The translations under genes were made by a program, and so were the position numbers. Shown here piece by piece: positions 21,246 to 49,601 of a stretch of DNA of 49,601 nt (within the stretch, counting starts at the first letter, position 1; each line of letters starts with the position of its first letter). Under the pieces are notes generated by a model. The model ran no database searches and was not told the origin of the DNA. It was given only the letters and a program-made list of their open reading frames with translations. The DNA is from Gemmatimonadota bacterium (lineage in GTDB: Bacteria > Gemmatimonadota > Gemmatimonadetes > Gemmatimonadales > GWC2-71-9): contig JAOTWJ010000007.1 of the NCBI GenBank assembly GCA_029862925.1, positions 1 to 49,601 of the forward strand. The letters run 5' to 3'.

Positions 21246-22024
21246 CTGAGGACATCCTCGACCGCCGCCCGCACCGCTTCGCCATGCGTGAGCGGCACGA
21301 TGTGCCCCGCATCCGGGAGTACCCGTAGTTCGGCACGTGGCAGACCGCGGGCGAGGGTCTCGGCCGCCGCGACGGGGAACAGCCGGTCCCGCTTCCCGTG
21401 CAGCACGATCGCCGGAAGTTCCAGCTCCGACAGCCGGTCGCGAACGTCGAAGCCGTCCATCGCCCAGCGATAGGACCGCCGCGCGGCCCAGTCGGTGTTG
21501 CGCCAGCCCGCAACCCCGACGGCAAGATCGCTGCGGAAGCGGAGGGCCCGAAAATCTACGTCGCGCGTGCGGAGCGTGCCGCCGTTCAAGAGGCGCTTGA
21601 CGCCCCGCGTCACGCGCCCGTGATACCAGGCCGGCAGGAACGGCTTGATCCCCACGCGCAGCTCCCGATCGCCCACGCGCGCGAGCTGGATGCGGACCGC
21701 ATCGAACATCGGCCCGGCCGTGGTCCCCACCAGCACGAGTCCACGGACGGCCGCCGGTCCCGACAGCCGGTGACGCAGCAGCCACACCAATGCCAGCATC
21801 CCGCCAAAGCTGTGGCCCACCACCACGCGGTCTGCCGCGCCGGTCCAGAGCGGATCGTCCACCAGCCGATCCAGCGCTTCGAGGTAGGGCTCCATGCCGC
21901 GGCCGGTCCCCGGCACGAAACGGCTGAAATTCGGGGCGAGTGCCGGGTACGGGAACGCCGGAAACGTCGTCGCGTTGAGCGACATGCCTGGCAACAGGAG
22001 CAGAACGGGGTCGGCGGACGGCAC
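21215..22024 (-). CDS. Alpha/beta hydrolase
   Basis: This is a cytoplasmic alpha/beta-fold hydrolase of about 269 residues. It shows an LLLLPGMSLN oxyanion segment, the nucleophile elbow GHSFGG, the acid in HGKRDRLFP and the catalytic histidine in DAGHIVPLTHGE. Specificity is unknown; carboxylesterase or lactonase are typical guesses. A GTG start at 22024 is chosen over the TTG at 22057 because a good promoter (TTGATC, 16 bases, TATACT) ends 5 bases before it, which implies a leaderless transcript. The TTG would lie inside the -35 box. The C-terminus carries VKRETWKSG from the palindromic repeat. Confidence 0.82.
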   Translation of the reverse strand: MPSADPVLLLLPGMSLNATTFPAFPYPALAPNFSRFVPGTGRGMEPYLEALDRLVDDPLWTGAADRVVVGHSFGGMLALVWLLRHRLSGPAAVRGLVLVGTTAGPMFDAVRIQLARVGDRELRVGIKPFLPAWYHGRVTRGVKRLLNGGTLRTRDVDFRALRFRSDLAVGVAGWRNTDWAARRSYRWAMDGFDVRDRLSELELPAIVLHGKRDRLFPVAAAETLARGLPRAELRVLPDAGHIVPLTHGEAVRAAVEDVLSVKRETWKSG

Positions 22025-39345: not shown

Positions 39346-40755
39346 ATGTACGACGACAGCATTGCCTTCCTGCCGGCTCGGGAACTGGGGCGGCGCCTGC
39401 ATGCCAAGCAGCTCTCTCCGATCGAGCTCGCCGAGACGTACCTGGCGCGGCTGGAACGGTGGGGACCGACGTTCAACTGCGTGGTGACCCTCACGCGCGA
39501 GCGTGCCCTGCGCGAGGCGCGTCGGGCAGAGCAGGAGATCATGCGTGGTCGGATCCGGGGACCGCTGCACGGCGTTCCGTACGGCGCCAAGGACCTGCTG
39601 GCCACCGCGGACTACCCCACGAGCTGGGGGGCGGCGCCGTATCGCGGCCAGCGGTTCGATCGGGACGCGACCGTCATTCAGCGACTCGAGGCGGCCGGTG
39701 CCGTGCTGGTGGCCAAGCTCGCCATGGTGGAGCTGGCCGGCGGCATGGGCTACAACCAGGCCAACGCGTCGTTCACCGGTCCGGGCATCACGCCGTGGAA
39801 CACGAAGTACTGGTCCGGTGGGTCGTCCAGCGGTTCCGGAGCGGCCGTTGCCGCCGGGCTCGTGCCGTTCGCCATCGGATCGGAGACGTGGGGCTCGATC
39901 ATGGCGCCCGCCACGTTTTGCGGCGTGTCGGGGCTGCGGCCCACGTACGGGCGGGTGAGTCGCCACGGGGCGATGGCCCTGTCGTGGTCCATGGACAAGC
40001 TCGGGTCCCTCTGCCGTACGGCGGACGACTGCGGGCTCGTGCTCGCGGCGATCGCCGGCGCCGATGCCGCCGATCCGAGCGCCGTCACGCAGCCGTACGC
40101 GTACCGGCCCGCTCGGCCTGCGGGGAGGCGCTGGCGGCTCGGGGTGCTGAAGGATGCGGCGACGGGTGCCCAGGAGGACGTGCGCCGGAATTTCGAGACC
40201 TCGCTCGAAGTCGTGCGTAACTTCGCCGACCTCGTCATGGACCTCGAGCTCCCCGACCTGCCGTTCGGCCAGGCGGCCGGAACGATCATCGATGCCGAAG
40301 GCGCGAGTGCCTTCGAGGACCTGATCCACGACGGGCGCGCGAACGAGCTTGCCGCTCCCGAAGACCGCACCGGCGGCTATTCCGGTCTCGTGGTACTGGC
40401 GAAGGACTACCTCAAGGCGCTGCGCCTGCGTCGCCAGATGGTGGTGGCGTTCGACGAGTTCCTGAAACCGCTGGACGGGATCGTCCATCCCACCCGCGCC
40501 ACGCCGGCCTATCCGCTCGACAAGCCGTTCCGCGAGGGCTGGCCCGGCGTGCGCGGCGGACCCGGACTGAGCGGGGCGGAAAATTTGTGCGGCACGCCGG
40601 GCATTGGGATTCCCAACGGGTTCGGCGTGGAGAACCTGCCCACCGGACTCCAGTTCAGCGCACGCGCGTTCGACGAGAACGTCGTGCTGACGCTCGCCGC
40701 CGAGTTTCAGCGCCGCACCGATTGGCACGCGCGGCGACCCCCGCTCGACGCGTGA
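39346..40755 (+). CDS. Amidase (amidase signature family)
   Basis: This 469-residue hydrolase of the amidase-signature family has a catalytic Ser-cisSer-Lys set. K82 lies in GAKDLL, the GGSSSGSGAAVAAG segment at 158-171 holds the cis-Ser, and nucleophile Ser184 lies in GSETWGSI. The usual SIR after the nucleophile is SIM here. C-terminal parts (FLKPLDGIVHPT, GTPGIGIPNGF, PTGLQF) match the family. It could cleave aryl or alkyl amides, as GatA-related enzymes do. GatB/GatC are absent, so a role in tRNA amidation is unlikely. It is coupled to the small Tat-leader gene. Confidence 0.92.
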   Translation: MYDDSIAFLPARELGRRLHAKQLSPIELAETYLARLERWGPTFNCVVTLTRERALREARRAEQEIMRGRIRGPLHGVPYGAKDLLATADYPTSWGAAPYRGQRFDRDATVIQRLEAAGAVLVAKLAMVELAGGMGYNQANASFTGPGITPWNTKYWSGGSSSGSGAAVAAGLVPFAIGSETWGSIMAPATFCGVSGLRPTYGRVSRHGAMALSWSMDKLGSLCRTADDCGLVLAAIAGADAADPSAVTQPYAYRPARPAGRRWRLGVLKDAATGAQEDVRRNFETSLEVVRNFADLVMDLELPDLPFGQAAGTIIDAEGASAFEDLIHDGRANELAAPEDRTGGYSGLVVLAKDYLKALRLRRQMVVAFDEFLKPLDGIVHPTRATPAYPLDKPFREGWPGVRGGPGLSGAENLCGTPGIGIPNGFGVENLPTGLQFSARAFDENVVLTLAAEFQRRTDWHARRPPLDA

Positions 40756-40798
40756 CGCCGCCGCTCCTGCCCGCCGACGTGCGAACGAAGCGGCCCCG

Positions 40799-43411
40799 CT
40801 GACTACCATCGTCGTCGTCCCGCATACGCACTGGGACCGCGAGTGGTACCTCCCGTTCGCGCGGTTCCGCCAGCGGCTCGTCCCCCTCGTCGACGATCTC
40901 CTGGATGCGCTCGACGCCGATCCCGCGCTGCGGTTTCATCTCGACGGCCAGATGGCGCTGATAGACGACTATCTCGACGTCCGGCCCGATGCGCACGCGC
41001 GGCTGAGCCGACTCGTCGACGACGACCGGCTGAGCATCGGGCCGTGGTACGTGCTCGCGGACGAGCTCCTGGCCGGGGGGGAGCCGCTGCTCCGCAACCT
41101 GCTGATGGGACGCCGCCGCGCCGCGGCGCTCGGTGGGTGGCTGCCGGTCGGCTACAGTCCGGACGCGTTCGGGCATCCGGCAACCCTGCCGAGTCTACTG
41201 CGCGGTTTCGGTATCTCGACGGCGCTGCTGTGGCGCGGCGCCGAGCCCGAGCCCGGGCGCGACCGGGATCTCTTCCGGTGGACGGCGCCCGACGGCGCGT
41301 CCGTGCTGGTGCACCATCTGCCCCCCGAGGGCTACGAGTACGGTGCCGAGCTGCCGGCCACGGTGGAGGCGCTGCGGCCTCGGTGGACCGCGCTGCGCGC
41401 CGTGCTCGAGCGGCGCGCGGTCACCTCGGTCCTGCTCGTGCTGAACGGTGCCGATCACCACGCGTTGCAACCCGATCTCCCAGCGGCGGTCGCGGCCCTG
41501 CGGTCGCTCGAGCCCGACGCGGAGGTCAGGATCGGTACACTCGCCGACTACTTTGCCGCGATCCGGAGCGCCGGGGGCGATCAGCCGACGGCGCCCGACC
41601 GGCGGGGCGAGCTACGCCACTCGCCGCGACATACGTGGGCGCTCCAGGGGGTGCATGCGACGCGCGCCGGGCTCAAGCGGCGGATCGCCGAAGGGGCCGC
41701 GTTGCTGACCCGCTGGGCGGAGCCGCAGGCGGCGCTCGCGGCCCTGGCGGGCGGCCGCGATCGCCGCGCGCTGCTGGAGGCTGCGTGGCGCGCGCACCTG
41801 CTGAACCTGTCACACGACGTGCTCGCCGGCTGTGTCGCGGATGCCGTCGCCGCCGACGCGGCGCGCCGCGCCGACCAGGTGATCGAGCAGGCCCGCGGGC
41901 TGCTGGACGACGCGCTGCACGAGCGGCTCGGCCAGGATCGGGTGCGGGCGCGCCGGGCGCCGGAGCAGTGGCAGCCGGCGCTCGTGCTCGTGAATCCGTC
42001 GCCCCACCCGCGGGCCGGGATCGTGGAGACCACCGTGACGGTGTTCGGCTCGCACGTGTCCGTCGGGCGGCCACCCAAGCCGGGGCCTGCCAGAGCCGGG
42101 CGCGTCGCGTTTCACCTGCGCGACGCCAGCGGTCGCGTGGTCCCGCACCAGGCGCTCGGCGCGTGGGAAGCGTACGAACGGCTGGACAGTGCTCGAGCCT
42201 ACCCCGACCAGGACCGTGTCTGGGCGACGCGCGTGGCCCTGTTGGCGCCGCAGGTGCCCGCGTTCGGCGTGCTGCGACTGGACCTTGCCGATCGGGCGGC
42301 CGGCGGTGCGATCTCCGATCCCGTCCGCGCCACGGCTCGGGCACTCCACGCCCCGTGGGGTCGCGTCGTGCCGTCGGCGGGCGGGTTTGCGGTGCAGCGA
42401 GGTTCAGCCGTGCTCGAAGGCGTCGGCGGGCTGGAGAGCGAACGGGATGCCGGCGATACCTACACGTTCGAGGCGGTTCCGGGGGATTCGGCCGCCCGGG
42501 CGCAATGGGGGGCGCCGCGCGTGGTCTGGCGGGGTCCGTTGGTGGCCGCCCTGGCGCGACCGTTCCGGATCGGCCGGCGCGTGCGCGGAACGCTGTTCCT
42601 GCGGATCGATGCCCGCAGCGATCTGGTGCGGCTGACCGTCGAGGGCGAGAACCTCCAGGGCGACCATCGGTGCCGCATGGTGCTGCCCGCGGGCCACGCC
42701 GGTGCGGTGACCGCCGACATGCCGTTTGGGCCGGTGACGCGAACGCCGAGGCGGCATGGGCCGCAGGTGGGCGACCGGGAGCGCCCGCCGCCGACGGCGC
42801 CGATGCACCGGTACGTCGCGGCGCCGCGGTGGACGCTGTACGCCCGCGGCCAGCACGAGTATGAGTGCCGACCGGGCGGCGACGTGGCCGTCACGCTGTT
42901 CCGAGCGGTCGGGGAACTGTCGCGGGACACCCTGCGCGCCCGGCCGGGGCACGCCGGCTGGCCCACGGCGACCCCCGAGGCGCAGGCGATCGGTCCGTTC
43001 CGGGTCGAACTCGCGCTGGCGCCCCGCGGCGCGGACGAGACGAGCCCAGGAGCGGACTGGGAGGCGGTCGAGCGGGCGGCCGAAACGTTCCACGCCCCCG
43101 TGATCGGGCGGATGCTGCGGTACGGGATCGCGGTTCCGCAAGCGGAGGCGGGGCCGGAGCTCTCCGGTGAAGGTCTCGTCTTCTCGGCTCTCAAACCGCG
43201 GGACGACGGTGAGGGCGTCGTCCTGCGGTGCGTCAACGTCACGCGCCAACGCGTGGCGGGGACCTGGCGTTGGCCGACCGCCATCACGCGCGCGCTCCGG
43301 GCCCGGCTCGACGAGACCGTGCTCGCCGAGCTCAAGCTCGGGCGCGACCGCCGCACGATCCGGTTCACGGCGGGTCCGCGGGAGATCGTGACGGTGGTGG
43401 TGGAGGTGTGA
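40799..43411 (+). CDS. GH38-type alpha-mannosidase (probable CTG start)
   Basis: This glycoside hydrolase has about 870 residues. The GH38 zinc and substrate motif HTHWDREWY (residues 9-17) opens the protein, followed by HLDGQ and the nucleophile segment SPDAFGHPATLPSLL (nucleophile D122). The rest is the helical bundle and C-terminal beta domains of GH38. The conserved frame has no ATG, GTG or TTG before ATG 40952, which would cut off HTHWDREWY. The first usable codon is CTG 40799, four codons before IVVVPHTHW, so a CTG start is inferred. A sequencing slip near 40780 is the alternative. No signal peptide is seen, so action is cytoplasmic on imported oligosaccharides. It is convergent with the DppC-like gene, 7 bases apart. 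Confidence 0.85.
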   Translation: MTTIVVVPHTHWDREWYLPFARFRQRLVPLVDDLLDALDADPALRFHLDGQMALIDDYLDVRPDAHARLSRLVDDDRLSIGPWYVLADELLAGGEPLLRNLLMGRRRAAALGGWLPVGYSPDAFGHPATLPSLLRGFGISTALLWRGAEPEPGRDRDLFRWTAPDGASVLVHHLPPEGYEYGAELPATVEALRPRWTALRAVLERRAVTSVLLVLNGADHHALQPDLPAAVAALRSLEPDAEVRIGTLADYFAAIRSAGGDQPTAPDRRGELRHSPRHTWALQGVHATRAGLKRRIAEGAALLTRWAEPQAALAALAGGRDRRALLEAAWRAHLLNLSHDVLAGCVADAVAADAARRADQVIEQARGLLDDALHERLGQDRVRARRAPEQWQPALVLVNPSPHPRAGIVETTVTVFGSHVSVGRPPKPGPARAGRVAFHLRDASGRVVPHQALGAWEAYERLDSARAYPDQDRVWATRVALLAPQVPAFGVLRLDLADRAAGGAISDPVRATARALHAPWGRVVPSAGGFAVQRGSAVLEGVGGLESERDAGDTYTFEAVPGDSAARAQWGAPRVVWRGPLVAALARPFRIGRRVRGTLFLRIDARSDLVRLTVEGENLQGDHRCRMVLPAGHAGAVTADMPFGPVTRTPRRHGPQVGDRERPPPTAPMHRYVAAPRWTLYARGQHEYECRPGGDVAVTLFRAVGELSRDTLRARPGHAGWPTATPEAQAIGPFRVELALAPRGADETSPGADWEAVERAAETFHAPVIGRMLRYGIAVPQAEAGPELSGEGLVFSALKPRDDGEGVVLRCVNVTRQRVAGTWRWPTAITRALRARLDETVLAELKLGRDRRTIRFTAGPREIVTVVVEV

Positions 43412-43418
43412 ACCGACG

Positions 43419-44270
43419 TCACCGCGCCGTCGGGTCCATGGCATCGCGGATCCCGTCTCCGACGAGATTGCATCCCACCACCGCCAAGGCCACAGCCAGG
43501 CCGGGGAACGTGGCGATCCACGGGGCCTGCACCAAGGCGTCCCGGCCGCTCGCGATCATGTTCCCCCAGGACGGCGTGGGGGCGGGGATGCCGAGACCGA
43601 GAAAGGCCAGCCCCGCTTCGAGCGTGATGGCATTGCCGACGCCCAGCGCGGTGGCGACGATCACGGGGGTGAGGGCGTTAGGGAGCAGGTGGCGCACCAG
43701 GAGCCGGACGGGCGAGCTGCCGGCTGCGCGCGCGGCATCGGCGTAGGGTCGGCCGAGCACGCCAAGCACTTCCGCCCGGGCGAGCCGCGCCACCGGCATC
43801 CACCCTGTGAGCGCAAGGACGAGCACCACGAGCGGTGCGCTGGGTGAGAGCAAGGCGACGAGCGCGAGCAGCAGGACGAGGCGGGGCAGCGCCAGCGCCG
43901 CGTCGGTCGCCGCCATGAGCACCCGCTCGACGGCGCCGCGGAACAGCGCGGCGAAGGCGCCGATCGCGGTCCCGATGACGGCGGCGAGCACGGCAGCCAG
44001 GACGCCGACGGCGAGCGAGATCCGCGCGCCGTACGCGAGTCGGCTCAGGAGGTCGCGGCCCAGCTGGTCGGTGCCGAGCCAGCGCACCGCGCCGTCGGGC
44101 CCGGCGGCCAGCGGCGCGAGGAACCGGGTGCGGAGGATGTCGGGCTGTGCCAGCGGGTCGTGCGGCACGATCCAGGGCGCGAGCAGACCCGCCAGGGCGA
44201 ACGCGCCCAGGATCGCGCCGCCGGCCAGGACCCGTCGGTCGCGCAGGGCGAACCGCAGGCTCGCGGTCAT
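43419..44270 (-). CDS. Oligopeptide/oligosaccharide ABC permease, DppC-like
   Basis: This 283-residue permease has an N-terminal helix (GGAILGAFALAGLLAPWIVP), the DppC-type WLGTDQLGRDLLSRLAYGARISL segment and an EAA-like loop DAARAAGSSPVRLLVRHLLPN. The last segments end LVGDGIRDAMDPTAR, typical of DppC/OppC. The ATG at 44270 overlaps the stop of the DppB-like gene (ATGA). It has no ATPase gene beside it in this window. In glycan loci such permeases often move oligosaccharides rather than peptides (inference). Confidence 0.92.
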   Translation of the reverse strand: MTASLRFALRDRRVLAGGAILGAFALAGLLAPWIVPHDPLAQPDILRTRFLAPLAAGPDGAVRWLGTDQLGRDLLSRLAYGARISLAVGVLAAVLAAVIGTAIGAFAALFRGAVERVLMAATDAALALPRLVLLLALVALLSPSAPLVVLVLALTGWMPVARLARAEVLGVLGRPYADAARAAGSSPVRLLVRHLLPNALTPVIVATALGVGNAITLEAGLAFLGLGIPAPTPSWGNMIASGRDALVQAPWIATFPGLAVALAVVGCNLVGDGIRDAMDPTAR

Positions 44271-45253
44271 CGGCGGAGCCGCGGGTCCACCGCGGCGTAC
44301 AGCAGATCGGCGAGCAGGTTGCCAAGCACCACCAGGGCGCCGAACACCGCGGTGGCGGCCATGACCACCGGGTAGTCGCGGGCGGACACGGCGCCCACCA
44401 GCTCGCGGCCCATGCCCGGCCACGCGAAGATGACCTCGACGAACACGGTGCCGGAAAACAGGGCGGGAAGCGACAGGCCGAGCAAGGTGACGACCGGAAG
44501 CAGGGCGCTGCGCAGCACGTGCCGCCGCACCACGGTGGGCGTGGGAAGGCCTTTCGCGATCGCCGTCCGCACGTAGTCCTGCTGGCGCACGTCGATCGCG
44601 GCGCCCCGCACATAGCGTGCGGTGCCCGCGATGCCGAGAAGGCTCAGGGTCGTGAGCGGCAGGACCAGGTGCTCCAAGCGATCGAGCAGGCGTTGGCCGG
44701 GAGTCAGGAAGTCCGCGTCCAGCCCCGCGGCGCCCATCGCCGGGAACTGGAGCCAGGCCGGCCAGCCGAACCGGGCGGCGCCGTAGGCGAAGACCAGCAC
44801 CAGAATCAGGGCGAGCCAGTAGCTCGGCATCCCGTACACGAAGAGCGTCAGCACGGTGAGGGCGGTGTCCAGCGGCCGGGCCCGCTTTACCGCCTGCACC
44901 AATCCGACGATTATCCCCCCGAGGTAGGTCAGCAGCAGCGAGGCGCCCGAGAGGAGCAGCGTGTACGGGACGGCGTCCGCGAGGACGCGGGTGACGGGGC
45001 GCTGCTGCGCGAGGCTCGTGCCCCAGTCGCCGCGGACGATGGTGCCGAGCCACGTCACGTAGCGGGCGGGGAGCGGCCGGTCGAGGCCCAGGGCCCGGCG
45101 TGCCGCCTCGAGGTCGGCGGCTCCGGCCCCGGGGCCGACCCATAACTGCGCCGGATCGCCCGGTGCGAGATTCAGCAGCAGAAAGGTCACGGTGACGACC
45201 GCGAACACGAGGCCCACGCCCGTGAACAACCGGACCAGCGTCCGACGCAGCAT
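44267..45253 (-). CDS. Oligopeptide/oligosaccharide ABC permease, DppB-like
   Basis: This 328-residue permease has an N-terminal helix (LVRLFTGVGLVFAVVTVTFLLLN), APGDPAQLW, RYVTWLGTIVRGDWGTSL and the DppB hallmark DYVRTAIAKGLPTPTVVRRHVLRSALLPVVT EAA region. ATG 45253 is preferred; the next in-frame start upstream is 45292, well inside the divergent gene. With ATG 45253 the two divergent genes use the two strands of one CATG as start codons. It pairs with the DppC-like permease. Confidence 0.9.
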   Translation of the reverse strand: MLRRTLVRLFTGVGLVFAVVTVTFLLLNLAPGDPAQLWVGPGAGAADLEAARRALGLDRPLPARYVTWLGTIVRGDWGTSLAQQRPVTRVLADAVPYTLLLSGASLLLTYLGGIIVGLVQAVKRARPLDTALTVLTLFVYGMPSYWLALILVLVFAYGAARFGWPAWLQFPAMGAAGLDADFLTPGQRLLDRLEHLVLPLTTLSLLGIAGTARYVRGAAIDVRQQDYVRTAIAKGLPTPTVVRRHVLRSALLPVVTLLGLSLPALFSGTVFVEVIFAWPGMGRELVGAVSARDYPVVMAATAVFGALVVLGNLLADLLYAAVDPRLRR

Positions 45254-46865
45254 GCCCAAGGCTGCGACGACGGCTGGCCGGGCGTCAAGCACGCTGCTGC
45301 TCGCGCTGCTCGCCGCCGCCTGCGAGCCCGGACCCGACGGCCACGCCGCGACGGTGTTCTACGCGTCCGGTGCCGAGCTCCAGTCCATCAACCCACTGGT
45401 GACCGTCCATCCGCTGGCCAAGCAGGTCCAGAAACACGTGCTGTTCCTGACGCTCGCGGACTACGACGAGCGCATGGAGCCACGGTCCCGTCTCGCGACG
45501 TGGACGTGGAGTGACGACCGCCGCCGGCTCCAATTCGAGTTGCGGCGGGACGTGCGGTGGCACGACGGCACACCGACGACGGCGGCGGATGTCGTTTGGA
45601 CGCTGGACCGCGCGCGCGATCCGCGCGTCGCCTATCCGCGGGCGACGGAGCTGCGCGACGTCACGGGCGCAGTGGCGCGCGATTCGTTCAGCCTGACGCT
45701 GCAGTTCCGCCGGCCTCAGCCGGTGTTTCCCGACGTGCTCACCGACCTCGCGATTCTGCCGCGCCACCGGCTGACCGCCGTCCCCCCGGAGCGCCTCCGT
45801 GAGGCGCCGTTCAACCGAGCGCCGGTCGGGAACGGGCCGTTCGTGTTCGTCGAACATCGGGCGAATCAGCGCTGGGTGTTCGACCGATCCCCCGGATTCC
45901 CCGCGGCCTTGGGGCAGCCCCACGTCGACCGCTTCGTCGTGGCGATCGTCGACGAGCCCACCACCAAGCTCGCGGCGCTCACGTCGGGCGAGCTGGATTT
46001 CGCGGGTATCAACCCCGCCCACGCCGCGTTCGTGCGGCGCGACGCGCGCCTCCAGGTCATCGACTACCCGATTCTCCTCTCCTACGCCGTGGTGTTCAAC
46101 CTGCGGCGTGTCCCGTTCGACGACCCAACGGTGCGCCGCGCGCTGTCCCGGGCAATCGACCGGGGCACCATCATCCGGGCCTACCTGTTCGGGTTCGGCA
46201 CGGTGGCATCCGGCCCCGTGAGTCCGGAGCATCCGTGGTACAACACCGCGGATTCGATCCCGTTCGACCCGGCGGCGGCAGCGGCCTTGCTTGAAGCCGG
46301 CGGGTGGCGGCGGGGTCCCGACGGCGTCCGTGTCCGCAACGGGGCCCGTCTGGCGTTCGACCTGCTCACCGTGGGCACGGGGGACATGGCGCTCGAGCAG
46401 ATGCTCCAGGCCCAGTGGCGCGGCCTCGGTGTGGCCGTGCGCATCCGCCAGCTCGAGCTCACGACGTTTCTCGCGACGGCTCAGAGCTCGGCCCGCGACT
46501 TCGACGCGCTCGTGACCGGCATCCCGGGTGACTTCGCGCTCGGCCACGTGGCGGCGATGTTCGATGGCGACGGCCCGTTGGCCTATCCCGGTCTGCGGGA
46601 TGCGGCCGTCGCGGCGGCCTTTGGCGCGGTGCGGGCGGCGGGGACCGCGACCGAGCTGGAGGCCGCGTGGCGCGGCGTGCAACGCGCCCTTGCGGCGGTC
46701 GAGGCGGTGGCGTGGGTGTATCATGCGCGGGGCGTGCAGGGCGCGGCGCGACGCGTCGCCGGCGTGCGGATCGACCTGCGGGGTGAACTGGCCGGCATTG
46801 CCGCGTGGCGCCTCGCGACGACGCCCGCCGACGGACGCGGCGGGACGGAGGGCGGATGGCCGTGA
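45252..46865 (+). CDS. Solute-binding lipoprotein (SBP_bac_5, DppA/OppA-like)
   Basis: This 537-residue extracytoplasmic binding protein has a leader with LLLALLAAAC (lipobox LAAAC, cysteine near residue 26). Mature motifs fit SBP_bac_5: AELQSINPLVTVHPLA, DGTPTTAADVVWTLDRARDP, NRAPVGNGPFVF, VFNLRRVPFDDPTVRRALSRAIDRGTII and the C-terminal Leu-rich region. ATG 45252 shares CATG (45251-45254) with the divergent DppB-like start. An ATG 60 bases upstream would add a basic extension inside the other gene. The stop overlaps the GHMP kinase start by 10 bases. It probably feeds the Dpp-type permease with oligosaccharides or peptides. Confidence 0.9.
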   Translation: MPKAATTAGRASSTLLLALLAAACEPGPDGHAATVFYASGAELQSINPLVTVHPLAKQVQKHVLFLTLADYDERMEPRSRLATWTWSDDRRRLQFELRRDVRWHDGTPTTAADVVWTLDRARDPRVAYPRATELRDVTGAVARDSFSLTLQFRRPQPVFPDVLTDLAILPRHRLTAVPPERLREAPFNRAPVGNGPFVFVEHRANQRWVFDRSPGFPAALGQPHVDRFVVAIVDEPTTKLAALTSGELDFAGINPAHAAFVRRDARLQVIDYPILLSYAVVFNLRRVPFDDPTVRRALSRAIDRGTIIRAYLFGFGTVASGPVSPEHPWYNTADSIPFDPAAAAALLEAGGWRRGPDGVRVRNGARLAFDLLTVGTGDMALEQMLQAQWRGLGVAVRIRQLELTTFLATAQSSARDFDALVTGIPGDFALGHVAAMFDGDGPLAYPGLRDAAVAAAFGAVRAAGTATELEAAWRGVQRALAAVEAVAWVYHARGVQGAARRVAGVRIDLRGELAGIAAWRLATTPADGRGGTEGGWP

Positions 46866-47899
46866 CGGACGGGCCGTGGCGGGTGCGCGCGCGCGCGCCC
46901 GTGCGCATCGATTTCGCCGGTGGGTGGTCGGACGTCCCCGTGTTCGCGGAGGCCGCCGGCGGGGTGGTCACGAACGCCGCGCTGGCGGCGCATGTGCACG
47001 TCGATGCGCTCCGCGGTGGCCGGGGCATTCGCCTCGTGGCCGAAGACCTGGGGGAGCGGGTCGCGGTTGACGGACCCGCCGGGCTCACCTACGACGGACG
47101 ACTCGACCTCCACAAGGCGGCGCTCAACATGCTGCCGGTGACCGGAGGGATCGAGGTGCTCACCCGCGCGGATGTGCCCGCGGGATCCGGGCTGGGGGCG
47201 TCCGGGGCGTTGGATGTCGCGCTGGTCGCCGCGCTCGCATACCTGCGCCACGAGCGCTTCGACCGGGCCGACCTCGCCGAGTTGGGGTTTGACCTCGAAG
47301 CCAAGGAACTGGGCCTCCTCGGCGGCCGGCAGGATCAGTACGCCGGCGCGTTGGGCGGATGGCACGAGCTCGCGTTCTCGGCGGTGGGGGTAGCCGTCCG
47401 GCCGATCGCCCCGACGCCGGAGCAGGTGGGGGAGCTCGAGAGCATGCTCGTGATTGCCTACACCGGTCAGTCGCACTTCTCCTCCCACACGCACGGCCGG
47501 GTGTGGGACGCCTTTCGGGCCGGCAACCCGGAGGTGGTGGAAGCGCTCGGGGTGATTCGGGACCTGGGGGCTGCCGCGGCGAACGCCCTGCGTGCCGGTG
47601 ACTGGCGCGCCCTCGCCGCTACGATTGACGAGAACTGGCGCCAGCAGCAGCGGCTCGACGACACCATCTCCACCCCGGCGGTCCGCCGGGTCGAGGACGC
47701 CGCCCGTGGGGCGGGGGCGTGGGGCCTCAAGGCGACGGGTGCGGGCGCGGGTGGCTGCCTCCTCGTGCTCGGCCCGCCGTCCCGGCGCCACGAGGTGGAG
47801 CGGGCGGTCGAGGCTGCGGGGGCGACCACGCTCTCCGTGAGGTTCGACTTTTCCGGGGTCGAGGTGTGGGAAGACGATGCTCCGGCCGATCGCGCGTGA
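46856..47899 (+). CDS. GHMP sugar kinase (HddA / fucokinase-like)
   Basis: This 347-residue kinase has the GHMP start RAPVRIDFAGGWSDVPVFAEAAGGVVTNAA, the phosphate loop PAGSGLGASGALD (usually PxGxGLGSSSA) and the C-terminal GLKATGAGAGGCLL motif. The FAGGWxDVP motif is typical of D-glycero-D-manno-heptose-7-phosphate kinase and the L-fucose kinase group. In this locus it probably phosphorylates a sugar freed by the mannosidase or lyase. ATG 46856 has GGAGGG just upstream. It overlaps both neighbours: 10 bases with the binding protein, 23 bases with the heparinase-type gene. Confidence 0.9.
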   Translation: MAVTDGPWRVRARAPVRIDFAGGWSDVPVFAEAAGGVVTNAALAAHVHVDALRGGRGIRLVAEDLGERVAVDGPAGLTYDGRLDLHKAALNMLPVTGGIEVLTRADVPAGSGLGASGALDVALVAALAYLRHERFDRADLAELGFDLEAKELGLLGGRQDQYAGALGGWHELAFSAVGVAVRPIAPTPEQVGELESMLVIAYTGQSHFSSHTHGRVWDAFRAGNPEVVEALGVIRDLGAAAANALRAGDWRALAATIDENWRQQQRLDDTISTPAVRRVEDAARGAGAWGLKATGAGAGGCLLVLGPPSRRHEVERAVEAAGATTLSVRFDFSGVEVWEDDAPADRA

Positions 47900-49601
47900 A
47901 CTCGGCGAGCGCCGCCTGACCGTCGCGCGTACGCCGGTCCTCGCGCGGGCGGCGGCGCGGCTCGAGCGGCTGCTCGGCGATCTCGGCCTCGCTCACCCGT
48001 ACCTGCCCGAGGCCAAAGCCCTGCTCTCCCGCGACGGGGGCGTCTGTCCGCACGACGGAACCCGACTCACCTTCGATCCTGATGCGCCGTTCGCGCACCG
48101 CTGCCCCTGCTGCCATGCCACGTTCGAGGGCGAGCGGCACCATCGGGCGTGGGTCACCCGCTACCAACTCTGGCTCAGCGAACGCGCCGTGCATCTGGCG
48201 CTGCTCGGGGCGCTGGGTGCCCGGCGGGATCTCGCCGAGCGCGCGGGTCGTATCCTCACCGCCTACGCCGGTCAGTATCACCACTACCCGAATGCCGACA
48301 ACGTGCTCGGACCGACGCGACTCTTCTTCTCCACCTATCTCGAGTCCATCTGGCTCGTACAGGTAGTCGTCGCCAGCGCTGTGCTCGAAGCCGGTCATCC
48401 CGACGCCCTGACGACCGCCGAGTGGGCCGCCGTGCGGCGCATGGTGGGCGACTCGGCGGCGCTGATCGCGGAGTTCGAGGAGGGCTGGTCGAACCGGCAG
48501 GTGTGGAATGCCGCCGCACTCGTGGCGGCCGGTGGTTGGCTCGGCGACGCGCGCCTCAGGGACCGCGGGTGGCGTGGTCCTTGGGGCCTTGCCTCGCTGG
48601 CCCGGGCGGTGGACGACGATGGGCTGTGGCACGAGGGGGAGAACTACCACCTGTTCGCCACCCGCGGGTTCTTGCTGGCCGCCGAGGTGATCCGGTGGCA
48701 GGGTGGCGACCTCTATGCGGGAACCCGGCTCGATCGCATGTACGGCGCTCCCCTCGTCACCCTGCTGTCGGACCTCACACTGCCCGCCCGCGGGGACGCG
48801 CCCTACGGGGTGTCGGTCCGGCAGCCCCGGTTCTGCGAACTCTGGGAGCTCGGTCGGGCCCGCGCCCGCGACCCCCGTCTGGACGGCATCCTCGCGCGAC
48901 TGTACGCGGCCGACGGACCGGAGCTCGACGACGCCGGCCGACGCGAGCTCGCGGAACAGGAGATCAACCGCCCCGCGCATCGCCAGCACCGCGACCGCGC
49001 GGGATGGAAAGGCCTGTTGTGGATGCGCCCCGACGCCCCGACGCCCGGAGACGACGGCACGGCCGACTCCCATCTGTTGGAGCTCCAGGGACTCGCCGTG
49101 TTGCGGCCGGAAGGCCGGCGAACGGCATTGCTCGAATGCGGCCGTCGCGCCGGCGGACACGCGCACCCCGATCGTCTCCACCTGTCGCTGGCGTGGGAGA
49201 CGCCCGTGCTCGCTGATTTCGGCACGGGCTCGTACGTCAGCCCGTCGCTCCACTGGTATCGCTCGGCGCTGGCGCACAACGCGCCGCTCCCCACGGGGGG
49301 CCGGCAGGACTCCGTTCCTGCGGCGTGCGACGGCTTTGGGTCGGTCGAGGAGTGGAGGTGGTGTCGCGCACGCGCCGACGGTCTGTGCGGCCCACACACG
49401 GGGGCCACCCGCACGGTCGTGGCCGGCACGGACTTCGTGCTCGACGTGGTGGACATCCGCGCGCCGCAGGGGGTGATGATCGACCTCCCCGTCCATCCCC
49501 TCATCCCCCTCGTTGGGTCGGCGGGGACACCCGCCGCGGCCCCCGGCGTAGCGCCTGTTGGCCACGAGACAGGGTACGATCGCGTGACCGCGTGGCGCGA
49601 A
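47877..49601 (+). CDS. Heparinase II/III-type polysaccharide lyase, C-terminus beyond the window
   Basis: The frame is open for 575 residues to the window edge. It starts at ATG 47877 inside the GHMP kinase gene. The N-terminal helical domain carries WVTRYQLWLSERAVHLALLG and a long alpha-alpha toroid with YHHYPNADNVLGPTRLFFSTYLE. The family hallmark is at about residues 420-450: GGHAHPDRLHLSL, VLADFGTGSY and YRSALAHNAPL. Residues about 60-85 form a degenerate zinc ribbon, CPHDG then CPCC. No signal peptide is seen. Such lyases split uronate-containing polysaccharides; here it sits with a mannosidase and sugar kinase. The end of the protein is missing. Confidence 0.9.
   Translation, partial: MLRPIARELGERRLTVARTPVLARAAARLERLLGDLGLAHPYLPEAKALLSRDGGVCPHDGTRLTFDPDAPFAHRCPCCHATFEGERHHRAWVTRYQLWLSERAVHLALLGALGARRDLAERAGRILTAYAGQYHHYPNADNVLGPTRLFFSTYLESIWLVQVVVASAVLEAGHPDALTTAEWAAVRRMVGDSAALIAEFEEGWSNRQVWNAAALVAAGGWLGDARLRDRGWRGPWGLASLARAVDDDGLWHEGENYHLFATRGFLLAAEVIRWQGGDLYAGTRLDRMYGAPLVTLLSDLTLPARGDAPYGVSVRQPRFCELWELGRARARDPRLDGILARLYAADGPELDDAGRRELAEQEINRPAHRQHRDRAGWKGLLWMRPDAPTPGDDGTADSHLLELQGLAVLRPEGRRTALLECGRRAGGHAHPDRLHLSLAWETPVLADFGTGSYVSPSLHWYRSALAHNAPLPTGGRQDSVPAACDGFGSVEEWRWCRARADGLCGPHTGATRTVVAGTDFVLDVVDIRAPQGVMIDLPVHPLIPLVGSAGTPAAAPGVAPVGHETGYDRVTAWRE

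Follow-up and report, generated by a model that had tools for sequence, protein, structure and literature searches.

The divergent genes for a DppB-like permease subunit (dppB) and a substrate-binding lipoprotein (SBP) begin within one and the same CATG, which, judged by comparison with related loci, is a genuine start-on-start junction inherited within one lineage. The window, that is, the whole stretch of 49,601 nucleotides analysed, belongs to a Gemmatimonadota genome (G000; 3.49 Mb in 290 contigs). We put at roughly 65% the probability of an overall reading in which this is a compact, derived start-on-start arrangement with a nested leaderless dppB promoter and an SBP transcript that begins upstream. 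The CATG junction would then be the zero-spacer form of an ancestral leaderless divergent promoter region. Leftward transcription of dppB would come from a sigma-70-type promoter (TTGAC-18-NANNNT) contained entirely in the signal-peptide codons of SBP, and transcription starting at the ATG or a few bases off it would make a Shine-Dalgarno sequence unneeded. In most relatives outside the clade of the window SBP would have a leaderless promoter of its own, placed rightwards of where dppB begins; the clade has lost this signal, and there the SBP frame extends left to the dppB ATG. The nesting would be asymmetric, the dppB promoter being inside SBP and no SBP promoter having been located. The junction, the frame register, the conserved dppB signature and the loss of the SBP leaderless signal can be read directly from the sequences, whereas start sites, promoter activity and regulatory consequences are deduced from them.

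Both genes are part of a cassette (Table 1) comprising, in order, a GH38 glycosidase gene, the convergent dppC-dppB pair, the divergent SBP gene, a GHMP kinase gene and an alginate-lyase/heparinase-like gene. It is present across the family of the window and in a sister family, GH38 being non-adjacent in some loci; in the window GH38 and dppC are 7 nt apart. No ABC ATPase gene was seen beside the permease and SBP genes at window positions 43419-49601. The minus-strand protein (45253-44270, 328 aa) is matched, above the cut-offs of both profiles, by Pfam BPD_transp_1 (PF00528; 6.5e-42, 143.8 bits) and PF19300 (48.6 bits), which places it among the Opp/Dpp/Nik permeases. Its N-terminus at 45253 is supported because the PF19300 domain, spanning residues 1-100, starts at residue 1. 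Strict assignment as DppB, the dipeptide permease, fails, with 172 bits for PRK10914 against 590 and all NCBIfam equivalog cut-offs missed. The plus-strand protein (45252-46862) matches SBP_bac_5 (PF00496, 6.3e-75, 253 bits against 32.4); read by eye, it starts with the lipoprotein signal peptide MPKAATTAGRASSTLLLALLAAAC and has the lipobox LAAAC. As for GH38, its motif HTHWDREWY (window 40736-40952, plus strand) precedes the first ATG, GTG or TTG, the nearest plausible start is the CTG at 40809, and a CTG is similarly placed in L035 and L036; the sequence suggests that this gene uses a CUG start.

Table 1. Features of the dppB-SBP junction and of the surrounding cassette (window coordinates).
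Feature	Coordinates	Strand	Basis
CATG with both start codons	45251..45254	.	Sequence; in register across clade
Opp/Dpp/Nik-type ABC permease B subunit (DppB-like), ATG start 45253	44267..45253	-	Pfam/NCBIfam profiles
Permease C subunit (DppC-like), start overlaps B-subunit stop	43419..44270	-	Profiles
SBP_bac_5 family substrate-binding lipoprotein, ATG start 45252	45252..46865	+	PF00496, start analysis
Lipoprotein signal-peptide codons, M1 to lipobox Cys24, also containing predicted dppB promoter	45252..45323	+	Sequence
Predicted dppB -35 TTGACG, in SBP codons 11-13 (rare Ser codon TCA)	45283..45288	-	TTGAC in 13/14 clade loci, 0/65 others
Predicted dppB -10 CAGCCT (NANNNT), 18-nt spacer, 5 nt to ATG	45259..45264	-	NANNNT in 13/14 clade loci, 1.5 expected
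GHMP kinase, HddA-like (below NCBIfam cut-off), SBP direction	46853..47899	+	Profiles; conserved neighbour
Alginate-lyase/heparinase II-III-like protein, runs past window end	47877..49601	+	Profiles; conserved neighbour
GH38 glycosidase, convergent with permease genes, probable CTG start 40809	40809..43411	+	Profiles, relatives

The plus-strand ATG occupies 45252-45254 and the minus-strand ATG reads from 45253, giving the two frames 2 nt in common (45252-45253); as the original prediction had it, no intergenic space separates the genes. Its remark that neither gene has a visible Shine-Dalgarno sequence also stands, none that is convincing being found in the window. In the SBP frame of the window no further ATG, GTG or TTG intervenes between CATG and the lipobox Cys; the upstream GTGs at 45192 and 45222, within dppB, are formally possible starts. 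A layout with both starts downstream of CATG and a promoter-bearing gap between them, which would have spoken against a shared start, is not that of the window, and a gap is present in most relatives outside the clade.

For comparison, 82 divergent dppB-SBP loci were aligned at the dppB start; L103, L114 and L151 were set aside, and the remaining 79 were divided into 14 class A loci, the window included, and 65 others. Some of the features counted also helped to define class A, but the tree that groups its members was built from DppB protein sequences alone; in it, 13/14 class A loci and L103 form a single clade (support 100/99), L099 of class A being absent from the tree. Fourteen of the 15 clade loci were thus analysed, L103, a member by the tree, being excluded from the counts for want of an ATG where its dppB should begin by projection. 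By itself CATG carries little weight, since the CAT of the dppB start is followed by G in 43/65 loci outside the clade, and its conservation on its own was rejected as proof. What goes beyond chance is the SBP frame: in all 14 class A loci, which are related and hence non-independent, it keeps the register of the dppB ATG and stays open to the lipobox Cys (19 to 90 codons), as against the same register in 19/65 elsewhere. In the alignment of homologues, proposed earlier as a check on whether the overlap is fixed, the junction is CATG in 11/14 class A loci and CATA in three (L034, L097 and L101), and most loci outside the clade have a gap.

In L038 and L102 an in-frame TGA lies just upstream and no usable start lies downstream, so the ATG of CATG is forced. 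Judged by the in-frame starts and by reading of the peptides, the same ATG is the only start yielding a charged signal peptide in the window, L037, L039 and L096. SBP may begin further downstream in the three CATA loci, each of which has a start there, and alternatives of this kind exist in L035, L036 and L098 too. L036 (G006) carries an in-frame insertion of about 200 nt between CATG and the SBP signal peptide, and its probable new start is an ATG at codon 53. Outside the clade, the CATG of genus g14 (L048, L116 and others) was considered as the same trait and rejected for most of its loci, which have a better GTG start about 22-66 nt to the right, preceded at 5 nt by TACCTT or TACTTT. L047 (G015), also outside the clade, has a CATG start-on-start and no downstream SBP start before the Cys, and is possibly an independent case.

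Divergent overlapping genes are strongly under-represented in prokaryotes (PMC2174442), and in one survey all divergent overlaps longer than 60 bp were misannotations (PMC2478687). As each of the two genes requires a control region upstream, such overlaps are generally put down to wrongly called start codons. The frames of dppB and SBP likewise overlap at their 5' ends; unlike the reported cases, the overlap is 2 nt long, its starts are forced in relatives and it is kept in a clade. A literature search, mostly of freely accessible papers, found no described start-on-start pair with a promoter kept in signal-peptide codons.

The original prediction placed each promoter inside the other gene. 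For dppB this does appear to be so: on the minus strand, TTGAC at 45284-45288 and NANNNT at 45259-45264 lie within the SBP signal-peptide codons. As part of the class A signature TTGAC-18-NANNNT-5-ATG, TTGAC is in place in 13/14 loci, with the exact geometry in 12/14, and at the equivalent site it occurs in 0/65 other loci; L035 has the signature displaced by one codon, and L038 lacks TTGAC but has a better -10, TACTGT. On the SBP strand the -35 includes the Ser codon TCA, used for 3 of the 90 serines in the cassette genes of the window and for 8.4% of serines in class A loci. Synonymous resampling with the codon usage of each locus gave TTGAC at the site with P = 0-0.024 per locus, a total expectation of 0.14 loci against the 13 observed. 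By this measure the promoter elements are kept against codon preference, which shows selection for promoter function and not for coupling. NANNNT stands 4-7 nt before the dppB ATG in 13/14 class A loci, where 1.5 would be expected, and in 64 of the 65 others, where the expectation is 5.9. The -10 of the window, CAGCCT, is weak, and a strict sigma-70 scan detected no promoter around the junction.

A TANNNT some 12 nt upstream of the start marks leaderless genes (PMC3160421; for Deinococcus-Thermus, PMC12340547). The dppB -10 ends at the distance expected of them, about 5-7 nt before the start, as NANNNT; the full TANNNT consensus is absent in the window. A signal closely similar to theirs precedes dppB in nearly all loci, and SBP outside the clade has the same signal and spacing. 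What sets clade dppB apart from those genes is that its -10 is mostly just NANNNT, is paired with a TTGAC -35 and lies inside the coding sequence of the neighbouring gene. This predicts a dppB mRNA that is leaderless or nearly so, which would account for the missing Shine-Dalgarno sequence. Among other genes of these loci TANNNT at -14 to -10 was found in 13/174, against about 2.4 expected, beside weak Shine-Dalgarno signals. Another leaderless-looking start in the window lies near 22024 on the minus strand (TATACT, 5 nt, GTG).

For SBP the predicted nesting finds no counterpart. TANNNT 4-8 nt before the SBP start, mostly GTG, occurs in 59/65 loci outside class A and in 0/14 within it, and an SBP leaderless promoter just left of CATG was rejected, the clade having no TANNNT register there. 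Conserved A/T wobble bases are absent from dppB codons 1-29; a search for an SBP promoter inside dppB by this means was likewise abandoned, only codons 30, 33 and 104 standing out, with no promoter pattern. In class A loci the first 50 dppB codons hold no conserved promoter-like feature, and no sigma-70-like match for an SBP promoter was found inside dppB. Since the clade has lost the leaderless signal and no SBP promoter was located in dppB, the SBP transcript would have to begin upstream, antisense to the beginning of dppB and possibly even from GH38, a step that proceeds by exclusion. SBP elongation would then cross the dppB promoter, the 5' ends of the two mRNAs would be complementary, and we infer mild interference between their transcription as likely. 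An SBP transcript that begins within dppB or beyond it would overlap the dppB mRNA in antisense, as in an excludon or a noncontiguous operon (PMC7154746).

The original prediction that the layout would force coupled or mutually exclusive expression is too strong: the geometry permits interference and makes either outcome plausible, but of the E. coli bidirectional promoters, the five that Warman et al. tested were too weak for polymerase competition (PMC12825309). We regard as doubtful, on present sequence evidence, that the shared start acts as a cis switch in which SBP transcripts arising inside dppB or beyond it block the dppB promoter and supply antisense RNA to the dppB start; in that case four shared bases would tune the permease and the binding protein reciprocally, with no regulator devoted to them. 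A considerably stronger contender, if still somewhat short of even odds, keeps the same anatomy and gives it no regulatory meaning, the layout being simple compaction of independently expressed genes. This opposes only the regulatory part of our reading, and confidences in the readings therefore do not sum to 1. The E. coli promoters that do not compete favour it, as do the restriction of the layout to one clade, its decay in several members and the fact that regulation is not shown by the present sequence analysis. The retention of dppB promoter elements in coding sequence argues against it in part, as selection for a promoter and not for coupling.

It is unlikely that the SBP start is misassigned, with the real start further right, a bidirectional promoter sharing a symmetric -10 (A 45259, T 45263) and the in-frame ATG at CATG being a by-product of the dppB start. 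Symmetric -10 bidirectional promoters were described by Warman et al. (2021; as related in PMC10268837 and PMC12825309), and start sites of bidirectional promoters are 7-25 bp apart, most commonly 18, with 10 and 23 also common (PMC10268837, PMC12825309). The clade -10 is symmetric in this sense, -7T and -11A being reciprocal across the strands (A6 and T10 in 13/14 class A loci); from the description in PMC10268837 an SBP start about 18 bp away would be expected. The frequent G after CAT, the downstream starts of the CATA loci and the related genera g36 and g29, with starts 22 nt apart and -10s sharing TA, also fit. Against this, the plus-strand symmetry is an automatic consequence of the dppB -10, the predicted plus start has no conserved A in clade sequences, the frame register holds in 14/14, and the window, L038 and L102 offer no ATG, GTG or TTG between CATG and the Cys. 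In the window the SBP start site predicted from the symmetric -10 falls downstream of the SBP ATG. Unlike in Warman's promoters, as far as these are described in the two sources, the start codon of clade SBP lies left of the shared -10, and for this reason the element cannot supply an SBP mRNA containing its ATG.

Least probable is a noncontiguous operon in which transcripts from GH38 would continue antisense across dppC-dppB into SBP-GHMP-lyase and SBP could do without a promoter near CATG: GH38 is on the SBP strand and convergent with dppC in 40 loci, and the window, with no terminator-like site found between GH38 and dppC, fits same-strand genes flanking an opposite-strand gene, as in the S. 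aureus example reviewed in PMC7154746, but relatives vary, with GH38-dppC gaps of about 600-800 nt in many and 1.6 kb in L036 and no GH38 found in the stretch examined of several clade loci, an inconsistency for which it was rejected as the main model.

Under the reading preferred here, a leaderless dppB promoter nested in SBP, the clade suggests a route to spacer loss in a lineage of leaderless genes, one promoter having moved into the signal-peptide codons of its neighbour. For the question of how two promoters share DNA, the 65 loci outside class A provide a natural series, with starts about 22, 46-49 or more nt apart. Most of them have a gap, the SBP start lying about 22-49 nt or more from that of dppB behind its own promoter-like signal, and the spacings group at about 22 nt and 46-49 nt. 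The latter is probably ancestral because it is also found in the sister family. The start codons are 22 nt apart in g36 (L061, L117, L123, L130 and L147) and g29 (L129, L132, L140, L141 and L143), where, as in Warman's promoters so far as reported, the -10s overlap on opposite strands (TACATT/TAGACT and TAGATT/TAAATT) and share TA; these would form a very compact and probably doubly leaderless bidirectional promoter. In about 26 loci (e.g. L054, L109 and L112) the starts are 46-48 nt apart, and GAATCTCGCGC and GCTAGAAT are strongly conserved before the GTG; the GAATCTCGCGC block covers the dppB -10 and may double as an operator. At the far end, in L056 (G010), dppB and SBP are about 1.3 kb apart, and TAGAAT-5-GTG remains with SBP.
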